DNA of 44,901 nt from Solidesulfovibrio fructosivorans JJ] (lineage in GTDB: Bacteria > Desulfobacterota > Desulfovibrionia > Desulfovibrionales > Desulfovibrionaceae): the NCBI RefSeq assembly GCF_000179555.1, contig NZ_AECZ01000033.1, positions 1 through 44,901 on the forward strand, given 5' to 3'. A model generated the notes under the pieces. It had not been told where the DNA came from. It worked only from the letters and a program-made list of their open reading frames with translations, and ran no database searches. Below, piece by piece: positions 35,596 to 42,396 of the stretch (position 1 is its first letter; every line of letters starts with the position of its first letter). The translations under genes were made by a program, and so were the position numbers.

Positions 35596-35666
35596 GGGGT
35601 TGGTGGCGGAAGAACTTCGATGATCTTGTCCCGGTCGTTTTCCTGCCTGCAAGGATACCCCGTGAG

Positions 35667-35719
35667 AAGTTTTTGAAGGGGGTCCAGGGGGAAACTTTTT
35701 TCAAAAAGTTTCCCCCTGG
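35667..35719 (-). terminator. Long-hairpin terminator-like element after the O-methyltransferase, copy 8
   Basis: Core 35684-35719, arms CCAGGGGGAAACTTTTT and complement, with tail AAGTTTTTGAAGGGGGT on the left. The 53 bases are the exact reverse complement of 42275-42327. It ends two bases before the stop of the minus-strand methyltransferase and points in its direction. With copy 7 it gives each of two converging genes its own hairpin. Confidence 0.8.
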
Positions 35720-37342: not shown

Positions 37343-38068
37343 TCAGTCGGCGGCCGCCTTGACCCCCGCGTGCAGGAAGACGATGCCGCCGGTCATGGCC
37401 CGGTAGGACACTTCGGCGAAGCCCGCCTGGCGTATCTGTTCGGCCAGCGCCGCCTCGTCCGGGAATTCGCGGATCGTTTCGGCGAGGTACAGGTAGGCCT
37501 CGTCGTCGCCGGAAACAAGTTTGCCGATTTTCGGCAGCACCCGGCGCAGATAGAAATTGTAGCAGCCGCCCCACAGCCGGCGCTTGCCCGTGCCGAATTC
37601 CAGCACCATGAGCCGCCCGCCGGGCCGCAGCACCCGGGCCAGTTCCCGGAAGGCGTCCTCCCGGGGACGGATGTTGCGGATGCCAAACGCGATGGTCGCC
37701 CCGGCCACGGACGCGTCCGGAAGCGGCAGGGCCAGTCCGTCCCCGAGCACCGGATGCACGCGGCGGACAAGGCGCGGCGGGATCTTGGTCTTGCCCCGCG
37801 CCAGCATGGGCAGGCAGGGATCCACGGCCACGACCGGCCGGTCGCACTGTCCGGCCAGCATGAGGGAAACGTCGAGGGTGCCGGCGGCCAGGTCCAGGAT
37901 GGGGCCGGCCGGGAGTCCCGGAGCGGCCAGCGCCCGCACCATGGCCCGCCTCCAGGCGATGTCGCAGCCGGCCGAAAGCAGGTGGTTGAGCAGGTCGTAG
38001 GAGCCGGCCACGCGGCCGAACATGCCGGCCACGCGCCGCGCGTCGCCGGGCGTTGGCAGATCAGCCAT
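37343..38068 (-). CDS. ubiE: Demethylmenaquinone methyltransferase, UbiE/MenG family
   Basis: A 241-residue class I SAM methyltransferase that performs the last step of menaquinone synthesis. VAGMFGRVAGSYDLLNHLLSAG at the N-terminus is the UbiE signature start; motif I is ILDLAAGTLDVSLML, followed by AFGIRNIRPREDAFRELARVLRPGG and LVSGDDEAYLYLAETI. MenG-type use is expected because the window has mqnB and mqnD and no ubiquinone genes. Its ATG overlaps the end of a small upstream gene by eight bases, suggesting coupled translation. Confidence 0.93.
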   Translation of the reverse strand: MADLPTPGDARRVAGMFGRVAGSYDLLNHLLSAGCDIAWRRAMVRALAAPGLPAGPILDLAAGTLDVSLMLAGQCDRPVVAVDPCLPMLARGKTKIPPRLVRRVHPVLGDGLALPLPDASVAGATIAFGIRNIRPREDAFRELARVLRPGGRLMVLEFGTGKRRLWGGCYNFYLRRVLPKIGKLVSGDDEAYLYLAETIREFPDEAALAEQIRQAGFAEVSYRAMTGGIVFLHAGVKAAAD

Positions 38069-38540: not shown

Positions 38541-39590
38541 ATGCATCCTTCTCTCGCCGCCCCTCCCGGTCTGGCCCTGCCGTCGCCCTGGGGACTTTTC
38601 GAAATTCTGCTGCTGGTCACCTTCGCGGCCCATCTGCTGGTCATGAACGTGGCCCTGGGCGGCACGCTGCTGCTCCTTTTCGCGCCGGGGCCGGAGCGGG
38701 GCGCGGCCGTGACCCTGGGCAAAAGCCTGCCGGCCTCCGTGGCCATCACCGTCAACCTCGGCATCGCGCCGCTTTTATTCGCCTCCGTGCTCTACGGCCA
38801 TTTCCTCTACACCGCCGCCGTGCTCTCGGCCTCGGTCTGGTTGTCGCTTTTCATGGTGGTCATGGTCGCCTATGCGCTCCTCTACCGGGCCCAGCCCCGG
38901 CTGGCCGGGAGAGGCTCGAACGCGATCGTCGTCCCGGCCGCCTGTCTGCTGCTGGCGGCGAGCCTCATTTTGGTCAACGTGTCCACGCTGTCCCAACGCC
39001 CGGACGTGTGGAAGGCCTATTTCGACCATCCCGGGGGCACGATCGTCAATTTGACCGATCCGACGTTTATCCCGCGCTGGCTCCATTTCGTCACCGCCTC
39101 CCTGGCCGTGGCCGGGCTTTTCCTGGCGCTTGTCAGCCGCAAGGCGGCCGGCCGGGGGGATCAGGCGGCTTCCTGGCGGCTGCGCGCGGGGCTTACATGG
39201 TTCACCCGGGGGACCATGGTCCAGTTCGCGGTGGGCATCTGGTTTCTGCTGGCCCTGCCCCAGGCGGTGATGCTGCGCTTTCTCGGCGCCAGCGGACTGG
39301 CCACCTTCACGCTGCTTTTCGGCATTGCCCTGGGCGCGGCCTCGCTTTGGGCCGGGCTCAAGGAAAAGGTCGGGGCGGCGGTCTGGCTGACAGCGGCCAC
39401 GGTCCTGGCCATGGCCTGTGTGCGCGAACTTGTCCGACAGGCCTATCTGGCCCCGGATTTCAGCCCGTCCGCGCTGCCGACGCTCGCCCAGTGGGGCCCG
39501 TTTTTCATGTTTCTGGCCAGCGCCGTTTTTGCCGGCGGCGTCACCGTCTGGATGGTGGCCGCCTATCGCCGCCAGGCGGGGAGGGGCTAG
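38541..39590 (+). CDS. Cytochrome bd-like polytopic membrane protein (CydA-related), first subunit
   Basis: A 349-residue protein with about eight or nine membrane helices. Segments such as ILLLVTFAAHLLVMNVALGGTLLLL near 25-50 and RWLHFVTASLAVAGLFLAL near 180-198 recall helices of the cytochrome bd subunit CydA, where histidines bind heme b. His in FAAHLLVMN, LYGHFLYTA and WLHFVTAS are candidate ligands. The CydA GRQPW quinol loop is not seen. ATG 38541 follows AAGGAG. The next gene starts three bases after the stop and has a related membrane domain with eight c-hemes, so the two probably form one complex. Family placement is tentative. Confidence 0.72.
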   Translation: MHPSLAAPPGLALPSPWGLFEILLLVTFAAHLLVMNVALGGTLLLLFAPGPERGAAVTLGKSLPASVAITVNLGIAPLLFASVLYGHFLYTAAVLSASVWLSLFMVVMVAYALLYRAQPRLAGRGSNAIVVPAACLLLAASLILVNVSTLSQRPDVWKAYFDHPGGTIVNLTDPTFIPRWLHFVTASLAVAGLFLALVSRKAAGRGDQAASWRLRAGLTWFTRGTMVQFAVGIWFLLALPQAVMLRFLGASGLATFTLLFGIALGAASLWAGLKEKVGAAVWLTAATVLAMACVRELVRQAYLAPDFSPSALPTLAQWGPFFMFLASAVFAGGVTVWMVAAYRRQAGRG

Positions 39591-39593
39591 GCC

Positions 39594-42239
39594 ATGGAGT
39601 ATCCCGTCTGGCATCTGGCCGCGTTCGGCGGCGGTTTCTGGATCATCCTCATCGCCGTGCTCCACGTGTTCGTGGCCCATTTCGCCGTGGGCGGCGGACT
39701 GTTTCTGGTCCTGACCGAGGCCAGGGCGCGCCGGCTCGGCTCCGCGCCCCTGCTGGAATATCTCCACCGCCACACTCGGTTTTTCCTGCTTCTCACCATG
39801 GTCTTCGGCGGGCTTTCCGGCGTGGGCATCTGGCTGACGATCACCACGCTCGCCCCCCAGGCCACCCTCGTGCTGGTGCGCACCTTCGCCTGGGGCTGGG
39901 CCACGGAATGGGCGTTTTTCGCCGGCGAGATCGGAGCCCTGCTCGTCTATTATTACGGCTTCGACCGGCTCGACGCCAAGACCCACATGCGGGTGGGCTT
40001 TTTCTATTTTCTCTTCGCCTTCCTGTCGCTTTTCGCCATCAACGGCATCATCGGCTTCATGCTTACCCCGGGGAAATGGCCGGTGACGCTCGATTTCTGG
40101 GACGGCTTTTTCAATCCCACCTTCTGGCCGTCCCTGGTTCTGCGCTCGGCCCTGGCTCTGCTTCTGGCCGGGCTGTTCGGGTTCGCCACGGCCCTTGGCA
40201 TCCGCGACGAAACGGCCCGGGAGATCATGCTGCGCATGTCCTGCCGCTGGGTGGTCGCGGCCGCGCCGGTGCTCCTCCTTTCCGGCTGGTGGTACGTGGG
40301 CGTATTGCCGGACGCGGTGCGCGCCTTCGTGCTGCACCGTTCCCAGGAGATCGCCTCCTACCGGGCGGCCTATCCCGCGCTGCTCGTGGCCCTGGCCGCC
40401 GGGGCGCTGGCCTTGGTGACGCGGCTGCCGCTGCCGCTGCGGCGCGTGTTCGCCGTTGTGCTGCTCCTTTTGGGCCTTGGCTTGGTCGGGACCTTCGAGA
40501 CCATCCGCGAGGCGGCCAGAAAGCCCTGGCTCGTCTACGGCCAGCTTTGGGCCACGGACATCCGGCCCACGAGCGTCGCGCCCTACGACGCGCCGTTTCT
40601 GCCCCGGACCAAGTGGGCCAAGATCAAGCGGGTGACCCCGGAAAACCGCTTGGCCGCCGGCAAGGAACTCTACGACCTGCAGTGCCTGGCCTGCCATTCC
40701 GTGGGCGGGCCGTTCAAGGACATCCGGGACTACACCGGCCATATCGGCGCGGCCGGCGTGGCCGCCTACCTGACCGGGCAGGGCAAGCTCTTCACCCAGA
40801 TGCCGCCCTTTCTCGGCGACAAAGACGAGCGCGACGCCCTGGCCGCCTATATCGCGGAAGGCATCAACGGGAAAAAGCCGGTAAAGCCAAAACCCGTGTC
40901 CATCGAACCGGTAACGGTCGATCTTCCGGCCTTTGACGCCGCATCCTCGCCGTATCTCCTGATCGGGTTCAACAGCCTGGGCGTGGTGGCCACGGCCGGC
41001 TGCGACGGTTCGTTTTCGCTGTCCGTGCCGGGCAACACGCTCGAGGCGGTGCTTATAAGGCGCGATGTCATGCCCGAGGTGGTGACCAAGGACGTGACCC
41101 TGGCCTACGCCGCGCCGGAGGGTTTCAAGCACCCGGCGGCCCGGTCGGATTTCTGGAAGTACTCCAAGGCGCTTGTCGGCAAAGAACTTGCGCCCGACGT
41201 GTCGCTGACGGGACTCAGGCCGGACGGCGAGATGAAGGCCGGAGACAAGCTCTTTGCCGCCGCCGGCATCCCGGTCACGCCCTATCCCGAAAAGGGCGGC
41301 GTGAACCCCTATCCGGTTTTCACCCTGACGGCCAGGGACGCCAAGACCGGCGAGGTGCTGGCCGCGACCAAGGCCGTGGCTCCCGCCTCCACGGAAATGC
41401 GCTGCCACACCTGCCATGGCGGCGCTCCCGGCGTGGACGGCGTCACCGGCGTGTCCACGGAGACCGCCAAAGGCATTCTGGCCGTGCACGACCGGCGAAA
41501 CGGCACGGACCTGTCCGCCCGGGCCGCCGCCGGCAATCCCGTGGCTTGCCAGAGCTGCCATCCCGACGCCGGGCCCAATGCCGGCGTTTCGGCCAAGGAC
41601 GGCAAGGCGCTGCTGTCGCTTTCCGCCGCCATCCACGGCTTCCACGCCTCCTACCTCGCCGGCGGCGACGCCAAGGTCTGCGCCAACTGTCACCCCACGG
41701 CCCCGGACGGCGTGACCCAGGCCCAGCGCGACAACCACAGCGCGGCCGGGGTTACCTGCGTCAACTGCCACGGCTACATGGAGGACCACGCCTTGTCGCT
41801 GCTGCGCCATGAGCGCATGGTCGGCAAGAAGGCGGCGGATTGGCTCATGAAGCCGCTTACGCCGCGAAGCGTGGCCGCCGTGTCCGACGTGAAGCCCCGG
41901 GCCGCCTGGATGCAGGAGCCGGACTGCCTGACCTGCCACAAGGACTTCATGCTGCCGGGCACGCACGCCACGGCCTTTAACACCTGGACGGCCAACGCCA
42001 CGCAGCTTTTCCGCAACCGCAAGGAATACACCGGCAACGTGCCCTGCGCGGCCTGCCACGGCAGCCCCCACGCCACCTTTGTCGCGGTCAACGACTACGG
42101 CGTCGACATCAATAACATCCCCGGCATGCAGTACATGGGCGTGCCCGGCGTGGTCGGCTCGGGCAAGCGCTGCGACGTCTGCCATACCGTGGAGATGGAA
42201 GGCGGCGAGGTCCACCACCCGAATATGGTGAAGGAGTAG
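39594..42239 (+). CDS. bd-like membrane domain fused to an octaheme cytochrome c region
   Basis: An 881-residue fusion. Residues 1-340 have about eight membrane helices with CydA-like features: VLHVFVAHFAVGGGLFLVLTEARA, WATEWAFFAGEIGALLVYYYG and LFAINGIIGFMLTPG (compare CydA NxWMQxPxG). A mono-heme class I cytochrome c follows (CLACH 364, with a Met in TQMPPFLG as likely axial ligand). Beyond a 170-residue spacer, seven CxxCH motifs start at 604, 652, 696, 722, 778, 818 and 860. The tail should be periplasmic. It probably moves electrons between membrane quinol or heme b and periplasmic cytochromes, or reduces a terminal acceptor; the direction and substrate are unknown. ATG 39594 follows GGGGAGGGG. 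Confidence 0.82.
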   Translation: MEYPVWHLAAFGGGFWIILIAVLHVFVAHFAVGGGLFLVLTEARARRLGSAPLLEYLHRHTRFFLLLTMVFGGLSGVGIWLTITTLAPQATLVLVRTFAWGWATEWAFFAGEIGALLVYYYGFDRLDAKTHMRVGFFYFLFAFLSLFAINGIIGFMLTPGKWPVTLDFWDGFFNPTFWPSLVLRSALALLLAGLFGFATALGIRDETAREIMLRMSCRWVVAAAPVLLLSGWWYVGVLPDAVRAFVLHRSQEIASYRAAYPALLVALAAGALALVTRLPLPLRRVFAVVLLLLGLGLVGTFETIREAARKPWLVYGQLWATDIRPTSVAPYDAPFLPRTKWAKIKRVTPENRLAAGKELYDLQCLACHSVGGPFKDIRDYTGHIGAAGVAAYLTGQGKLFTQMPPFLGDKDERDALAAYIAEGINGKKPVKPKPVSIEPVTVDLPAFDAASSPYLLIGFNSLGVVATAGCDGSFSLSVPGNTLEAVLIRRDVMPEVVTKDVTLAYAAPEGFKHPAARSDFWKYSKALVGKELAPDVSLTGLRPDGEMKAGDKLFAAAGIPVTPYPEKGGVNPYPVFTLTARDAKTGEVLAATKAVAPASTEMRCHTCHGGAPGVDGVTGVSTETAKGILAVHDRRNGTDLSARAAAGNPVACQSCHPDAGPNAGVSAKDGKALLSLSAAIHGFHASYLAGGDAKVCANCHPTAPDGVTQAQRDNHSAAGVTCVNCHGYMEDHALSLLRHERMVGKKAADWLMKPLTPRSVAAVSDVKPRAAWMQEPDCLTCHKDFMLPGTHATAFNTWTANATQLFRNRKEYTGNVPCAACHGSPHATFVAVNDYGVDINNIPGMQYMGVPGVVGSGKRCDVCHTVEMEGGEVHHPNMVKE

Positions 42240-42274: not shown

Positions 42275-42327
42275 CCAGGGGGAAACTTTTTGAAAAAAGT
42301 TTCCCCCTGGACCCCCTTCAAAAACTT
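42275..42327 (+). terminator. Long-hairpin terminator-like element after the octaheme gene, copy 9
   Basis: Core 42275-42310 with arms CCAGGGGGAAACTTTTT and complement, plus tail ACCCCCTTCAAAAACTT. All 53 bases are the exact reverse complement of 35667-35719. It starts 35 bases past the octaheme gene stop and points in its direction, just before the small secreted protein gene. Confidence 0.8.
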
Positions 42328-42396
42328 TTCAAGGGGTGTATGTGGGGGAAAGAATGGCAAAAAGGCCTTTCGGCTTTTTGTCGGGGAGGGAACCCT

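Follow-up and report, generated by a model that had tools for sequence, protein, structure and literature searches.

The subject of this report is a pair of membrane protein genes of Solidesulfovibrio fructosivorans JJ, found in a window of 44,901 nucleotides, the whole stretch of DNA that was analysed (contig NZ_AECZ01000033.1 of assembly GCF_000179555.1). The genes lie head to tail on the forward strand and are separated by 3 bases. The first, P1 (38541..39590, ATG at 38541, stop at 39588-39590), encodes 349 amino acids. The second, P2 (39594..42239, ATG at 39594, stop at 42237-42239), encodes 881 amino acids comprising a membrane domain, a class I cytochrome c, a beta domain and a heptaheme region. 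A GGAG Shine-Dalgarno-like stretch was observed upstream of each start. The P1 frame is kept across an alignment of 27 sequences with identities to the window protein down to 31%, and the P2 frame across 26 sequences with identities down to 44%, which excludes chance open frames. A first-pass annotation had described two CydA-like membrane proteins three bases apart, the second ending in a class I cytochrome c and a heptaheme region. The coordinates, the homology between P1 and P2 and the cytochrome bd fold of both agree with this description, and eight CxxCH motifs are present in P2, arranged as 1 + 7.

The membrane domain of P2

Residues 1-345 of P2 (39594..40628, forward strand) form a CydA-like domain of eight membrane helices. 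The AlphaFold (AF2) model of P2, with a predicted local distance difference test (pLDDT) score of 91.1 and a predicted template modelling score of 0.86, contains 8 membrane helices; in this model as in that of P1, membrane-spanning helices were assigned by length and order. When the model was compared by Foldseek with the PDB, ranks 1-20 were all occupied by cytochrome bd chains at a probability of 1.00, 16 of them at E 0.001 or better. The best matches are CydA chains, beginning with 9r2g_A (E 5.8e-8), and the probability falls to 0.82 at rank 21. Among the 50 best matches listed, an alternative complex III subunit (6btm_F) appeared at rank 43 and no PsrC-type chain was found. At the sequence level, P2 as a protein scores 24.1 bits against the Pfam family Cyt_bd_oxida_I (PF01654), under the cut-off of 26.2, and 27 bits, above the cut-off, in a six-frame scan of the genome; full-length orthologues reach up to 51 bits. 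The P2 profile also finds Geobacillus subunit I (5doq_A, E 6.9e-7).

In E. coli CydA, H19 and E445 ligate the two active-site hemes, and H186 and M393 ligate heme b558. H24, E105, E112 and E306 of P2 align with E. coli H19, E99, E107 and E445, and all four are invariant in the 107 rows of the P2 alignment, which is made of 80 loci from a species collection, 25 further relatives, the window and a paralogue from contig 14 of the same genome. Near-identical rows were kept in the alignments (L040 and L014 are apparently one contig), and row counts are not independent events. R184, F301, E302, R305, R309 and P311 are likewise invariant (107/107). E302 had been considered as the equivalent of E445 and was dropped, since E445 is the glutamate of AEYGRQPW, which aligns with E306.

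The ligands of heme b558 are not present in the corresponding columns of P2: position 183, the site of E. coli H186, is F in 90 rows and L in 17, next to R184, and M393 has no counterpart. No Q-loop is present: in both models a stretch of 13-14 residues connects transmembrane helices 6 and 7 (TM6 and TM7). In the alignment of P2 with CydA, E. coli residues 237-265, K252 and E257 included, and about 311-388 fall in gaps, in line with the earlier observation that the usual quinol loop is not seen. The fold, the profile matches and the conservation of histidines and glutamates all agree with a branch of the cytochrome bd superfamily that lacks the quinol site and carries c-hemes.

P1, the probable partner subunit

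P1 is a membrane protein of nine helices with the fold of a cytochrome bd subunit (AF2 model, pLDDT 91.9). The first 18 Foldseek matches in the PDB are all cytochrome bd chains at a probability of 1.00. Chains of CydA size and of CydB size are matched alike, and the best TM-score, 0.70, is to a chain of CydB size (9r2g_D, 330 residues), from which P1 may occupy the place of CydB. No CydB sequence match was found for P1, which is CydB-like by fold alone; in the comparison with the Pfam bd families 0 of 66 members matched, and P1 gave no Pfam match above cut-off. The earlier statement that no CydB-like gene is present thus holds for the sequence of P1 and not for its fold.

A profile comparison gives a probability of 96% for homology between P1 and P2. 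Together with the fold search, this match speaks against P1 being a member of an unrelated membrane family, although the P1 profile did not match CydA directly and found no bd chain when compared with the PDB by sequence. Alignment to the bd families was obtained for P2 with CydA directly (96.9%) and for P1 only through P2. The first-pass annotation had named an unrelated family, or the absence of conserved heme b histidines, as outcomes that would contradict it; both were looked for and neither was found. That P1 and P2 belong to the cytochrome bd superfamily is well supported.

H182 of P1, which aligns with E. coli H186 by way of P2, is invariant in the 98 rows of the P1 alignment (70 loci, 26 further relatives, the window and the contig-14 paralogue). 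H31 in helix 1 occurs in all 94 rows that have a residue at this position, the four rows with a gap being left out, and M291 in helix 8 in each of the 98. Apart from the start methionine, the remaining His and Met columns of P1 all stay below 90%, and no conserved Met is found in TM7. H31, H182 and M291 are three possible heme ligands, and equivalents of E99 and E107 are absent from P1. The invariant sets of the two proteins differ, so that each subunit would hold another part of the CydA ligand set; we infer from this conservation that hemes bind at the invariant residues of P2 and P1. Both ligand sets are retained in the divergent pair on contig 14.

P1 was detected with P2 in 70 of the best 80 loci. 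Ten loci have no P1 beside P2, and in 6 of them P2 lies at most 310 bases from the end of the sequence. In the other four (L051, L056, L061 and L073) P1 is not adjacent to P2 despite at least 1 kb of upstream sequence, and each of these genomes (4 of 4) has one P1 match at a different place. For instance, in the complete chromosome of Desulfonema magnum (L061), P1 lies about 5 Mb from P2. This presence without linkage is good evidence that both proteins work together.

The c-heme arm of P2

The membrane domain of P2 is followed by a class I cytochrome c (residues 348-425, 40635..40868, forward strand) with the heme-binding motif CLACH at 364-368 and Met403 as the likely second axial ligand. 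The Pfam family CBB3 matches residues 352-420 at 26.2 bits, slightly below the cut-off of 27, and C364, C367, H368 and M403 are invariant in the 107 P2 rows. Residues 441-600 (40914..41393, forward strand) make up a beta-rich domain, as assigned by DSSP on the AF2 model, which separates the cytochrome c from the heptaheme region (residues 601-881, 41394..42236, forward strand). In the latter, seven CxxCH motifs (604, 652, 696, 722, 778, 818 and 860) are found within residues 604-864. The region matches Pfam Cytochrome_C7 at 37.8 bits and an MtrC/MtrF-like family slightly below cut-off.

Candidate distal ligands are provided by H632, H681, H684, H715 and H826, present in 62 of 62 rows, and by H874 and H875, present in 61 of 62; an eighth extra histidine, H732, is almost invariant (58/62). 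The CxxCK motif was found in 0 of the 62 heptaheme rows. Seven extra histidines for seven hemes and the lack of CxxCK speak for an arm that conducts electrons and against a further catalytic heme, and bis-histidine, electron-conducting hemes would fit this sequence pattern. Lysine and arginine residues average 4.5 in the loops of P2 that lie on the same side of the membrane as its N-terminus versus 9.1 on the opposite side, which places the C-terminus in the periplasm, in agreement with what c-heme attachment requires. The corresponding means for P1 are 4.6 on the side of the N-terminus versus 12.5.

Distribution and architecture among relatives

A collection of 84,980 species, with one genome per species, was scanned and yielded at least 540 confirmed relatives, the best 80 of which were analysed. 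The closest match among those listed is a Solidesulfovibrio metagenome-assembled genome (MAG), with 81% identity over P2 residues 1-425. Among 40 related genomes, a number that includes that of the window, 28 have a P2 match, and a profile of the membrane domain plus cytochrome matches 45 of 197 genomes of the phylum, again with the own genome included. Many of those 45 have lower-scoring open frames of about 440-480 amino acids and are more distantly related. A fold search against a viral fold library gave no match at E 0.001 or better. The best 80 relatives are mostly of Desulfobacterota type, including Geobacteraceae; two are Bacteroidota, one is Calditrichota and one CSSED10-310, by their NCBI lineage and with MAG contamination possible. 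The system, which the first-pass annotation had assigned to sulphate reducers, is not confined to them, since it also occurs in relatives of Geobacter, in one MAG of Calditrichota and in two of Bacteroidota. The system is real, conserved and widespread.

The full 1 + 7 form (P2 of more than 800 amino acids with eight CxxCH) was observed in 61 of the best 80 relatives. The other 19 are accounted for by cuts at contig ends, broken frames, a single heme, a count of seven CxxCH or membership of a three-heme clade. The broken frames are those of L042 (1169-3656) and L103 (295-2969), where an eight-heme P2 is split into two or three frames, by sequencing error or gene decay. In the three-heme clade, represented by six loci, class I cytochromes stand in tandem, two of them in one locus and three in the others, and P2 precedes P1. 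An eight-heme gene lies downstream of the pair in three of these six loci, all from Geobacteraceae (L107:8866-10344, L109:10976-12430 and L118:7545-9125); the one of the three that was scanned, that of L109, is an octaheme cytochrome of the tetrathionate reductase family. In a P2 tree built by a quick method, the three-heme, Geobacterales-type form makes one clade with a support of 100. A split form described below (L093, L096 and L101) nests in the mostly eight-heme Desulfovibrionaceae, beside Halodesulfovibrio with seven CxxCH counted. The tree was rooted on the contig-14 paralogue, whose very long branch leaves the root unsure. When approximate genes were clustered over the 80 loci, with rough picking of open reading frames (ORFs) in GC-rich DNA, no family apart from P1 and P2 was shared by over 10 loci; the one family noted is an antisense artefact over P2.

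The window's own genome (4.67 Mb) contains two canonical CydA genes in addition to the second divergent bd-like pair on contig 14. This pair (L008:124-3971) consists of a P2-type protein of 450 amino acids with one heme and a P1-type protein of 516 amino acids with two cytochrome c domains, and it is preceded by a gene for a diheme cytochrome of SoxA/TsdA type. The pair may connect the oxidation of thiosulphate with a terminal enzyme of this type.

The split form and the FdhM cluster

In three loci of Desulfovibrio/Nitratidesulfovibrio (L093, L096 and L101), P2 has 435 amino acids and stops after the cytochrome c. The product of the following gene has 10 CxxCH motifs, one CX4CH and, as judged by eye, an apparent N-terminal membrane anchor. 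This separate heptaheme protein carries a class III cytochrome c (tetraheme c3) domain at its C-terminal end (Pfam, 58.9 bits in L096). In L093 and L096 the order is P1, P2, heptaheme-c3 protein, fdhA and fdhB, and L101 starts at P2. The fdhA gene of L096 is read as two in-register open frames with a TGA between them, as expected of a selenocysteine enzyme. Such fdhAB genes follow the pair in 3 of the 80 loci and are not found in 77 of 80, a count to be read with 32 of the 80 loci being at least 15 kb long. Residues 64-519 of the L096 heptaheme protein match the heptaheme part of P2 from the window genome at 43%, and residues 525-629 match a stand-alone tetraheme c3 of that genome at 44%. The two matches make a Rosetta-stone link between the heptaheme arm and cytochrome c3.

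These loci resemble the FdhM (Cfd) cluster of N. vulgaris Hildenborough, for which PMC10920352 gives DVU2484 as CfdD (47.7 kDa), DVU2483 as CfdE (61.9 kDa), and DVU2481 and DVU2482 as CfdB and CfdA, with peptides of DVU2481-2484 detected. Calculated sizes in the split loci are 48.3-48.5 kDa for P2 and 66.4-67.4 kDa for the heptaheme protein; P2 is close to CfdD, and the heptaheme protein is 5 kDa above CfdE. Gene order and approximate size suggest that the Nitratidesulfovibrio-type split loci are the FdhM cluster. DVU2485 would then be its P1 gene, although it is not named in the open-licence literature searched. The membrane parts of the cluster have been published under the names "cytochrome c oxidase" and "unidentified membrane protein".

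The membrane pair and the heptaheme module of the window are found in the close relatives L093 and L096, and the FdhM cluster may contain them as well. The FdhM-type loci differ in that the heptaheme protein is separate, fused to c3 and followed by fdhAB, whereas in the window the heptaheme region is fused to P2 and neither a c3 domain nor an fdh gene is seen; no fdh gene was noticed among the ORFs flanking the pair, as listed and read by eye.

Proposed function

Taken together, the two proteins probably act as a periplasmic cytochrome c3:O2 oxidoreductase, a quinone-independent oxygen reductase of bd type, as far as can be judged from sequence and predicted fold. P1 and P2 would form a membrane heterodimer of two bd-superfamily subunits, of which P2 would carry a di-heme active site near the periplasmic side. 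The electron entry of CydA, lost in P2 together with the b558 ligands and the quinol site, would be replaced by the periplasmic class I cytochrome c. The bis-histidine heptaheme arm would take electrons from periplasmic tetraheme cytochrome c3, itself reduced by hydrogenases or formate dehydrogenases. Electrons would thus pass from c3 to the heptaheme arm, the monoheme cytochrome c, perhaps a heme b in P1, and the active-site hemes, where O2 is reduced. Protons would presumably come from the cytoplasm, in which case the reaction would be charge-separating. The pair would then be a further, quinone-independent oxygen reductase and an O2 defence route of these anaerobes.

The first-pass annotation had left the choice between a quinol:cytochrome c and a cytochrome c:acceptor oxidoreductase; of the two, the latter is favoured. 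It had also considered such enzymes functionally obscure and possibly new. A split version of the pair apparently belongs to the FdhM cluster of Nitratidesulfovibrio, which takes away part of the novelty, and O2 as the acceptor is still a deduction. A more specific model is put forward only tentatively: the two bd paralogues would divide the CydA ligands, with the O2 site in P2 and the b-heme set in P1; eight hemes would wire c3 to O2 and carry electrons derived from H2 or formate; and the FdhM cluster would be a missing third membrane oxygen reductase of D. vulgaris, accounting for the resilience of the double oxidase mutant. According to PMC4383621, a D. vulgaris mutant without bd and cox, the two known membrane O2 reductases, is close to the wild type at 0.02% O2 in several traits, among them final biomass and lactate yield, the balancing mechanism being called unknown by its authors. 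Also in favour of the proposed oxygen reductase, fdhAB follow the pair in 3 of 80 loci, and FdhM oxidises formate aerobically with high-potential acceptors, CO2 reduction by it not having been detected (PMC13397495).

Several observations weigh against an oxygen reductase. Most named carriers belong to groups known as anaerobes. Only 2 of the 18 bd fold matches of P1 reach E 0.001 or better. The P1 profile gives no match to CydA directly (0.1% probability in a global comparison). Following air or 0.1% O2, the viability of the D. vulgaris double mutant falls below that of the single mutants (PMC4383621). FdhM can by itself pass electrons to O2, giving H2O2, without these membrane subunits (PMC13397495).

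Two further points of this kind lead to the main alternative, which we regard as unlikely and in which the pair is a cytochrome c:menaquinone oxidoreductase, or the reverse, and electrons run from c3 through the c-hemes to a quinone site possibly in P1, as in Qrc with its NrfD-like subunit. The 19th fold match of P1, and the first that is not a bd chain, is the menaquinone-binding PsrC (2vpw_C, probability 1.00, E 0.056, TM-score 0.60 by target length), after which the probability falls to 0.60. Upstream of P1, on the minus strand (37343-38068), lies a gene of the UbiE/COQ5 methyltransferase family (Pfam, 171 bits), whose family name refers to menaquinone/ubiquinone methylation; its adjacency to P1 may or may not carry meaning. 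Sulphate reducers use menaquinone and anaerobic acceptors, and the ligand set of P1, which lacks the O2-site glutamates, could serve a quinone site. On the contrary, these glutamates are invariant in P2, and the quinol features of bd enzymes (the Q-loop, the K252/E257 region and b558 ligands in one subunit) are absent. Moreover, PsrC is outranked by 18 bd chains for P1 and, as reported above, has no counterpart among the best matches of P2.

It is quite improbable that the bd-like site reduces another small molecule, such as nitric oxide or peroxide, or that the heptaheme region is itself a reductase of nitrite or tetrathionate type. The weak matches of the latter to NrfH-, NrfB- and octaheme-type models would speak for it, but they are far under cut-off, and with seven extra histidines for seven hemes and no CxxCK no heme is obviously open. 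The eight-heme genes downstream of the pair in three Geobacteraceae loci, with the tetrathionate reductase family member of L109, and the diheme gene before the contig-14 pair are also on its side. Finally, the membrane pair could lack a catalytic site and serve as anchor and relay, docking a formate dehydrogenase for instance, as its place beside the formate dehydrogenase genes in Nitratidesulfovibrio-type loci might suggest. This reading is very improbable, given that 77 of the 80 loci show no fdh gene and that invariant H24, E105, E112 and E306 would be unnecessary in an anchor.

Comparison with known bd families

The bd enzymes characterised to our knowledge take electrons from quinol. CydAB (qOR) shares with the pair the fold of both subunits and, in P2, the equivalents of H19, E99, E107 and E445. 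The pair differs in that it lacks the Q-loop, that P2 has no H186/M393, that the partner is not CydB-like by sequence and that c-hemes are added. The OR-C family of Murali 2021 is reportedly marked by a c-type heme on a bd subunit without a quinol site. P2, bd-like, without a quinol site and with a c-heme, resembles this family by that definition. The archaeal CydAA' is likewise said to be a pair of bd-superfamily paralogues that work together. OR-N, as described in PMC10839748, comprises two bd paralogues that are thought to work together and have been proposed to oxidise cytochrome c. The window has the two-paralogue pair in common with OR-N and CydAA' but differs in having the E99/E107 equivalents only in P2 and a multiheme arm fused to it.

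No description of the 1 + 7 fusion was found in the open-licence literature, a scope that covers neither Murali 2021 nor Pereira 2011, where an earlier description is possible. The passages available of PMC4215793, PMC4287179, PMC5492636, PMC9040806, PMC11451228, PMC11707229 and PMC13189123 do not describe it, and PMC10553843 gave no match for the terms sought. The system is a variant of the known bd superfamily rather than a new kind.

A repeat element beside the pair

Directly 3' of P2 and outside the enzyme lies an 80-nucleotide palindromic repeat element (42275..42354, no strand assigned) with a terminator-like hairpin. An inverted copy is found at 35640-35719, and the two copies in the window are 88% alike. 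The core hairpin, GGGGGAAACTTTTTNNAAAAAGTTTCCCCC, occurs at 76 places in the own genome with at most 2 mismatches (as a palindrome, 76 per strand), versus 0 for the control. The element looks like a dispersed terminator-like repeat.

Implications

If the proposed function is correct, sulphate reducers and their relatives would have a direct path from H2 or formate to O2. The pair would also offer a concrete candidate for what lies behind the unexplained traits of the D. vulgaris mutant without both oxidases, and a function could be given to those membrane genes of the FdhM cluster that are so far unassigned. Furthermore, the divided ligand sets of P1 and P2 would make it possible to ask, in a natural experiment, which hemes are required for the bd reaction.

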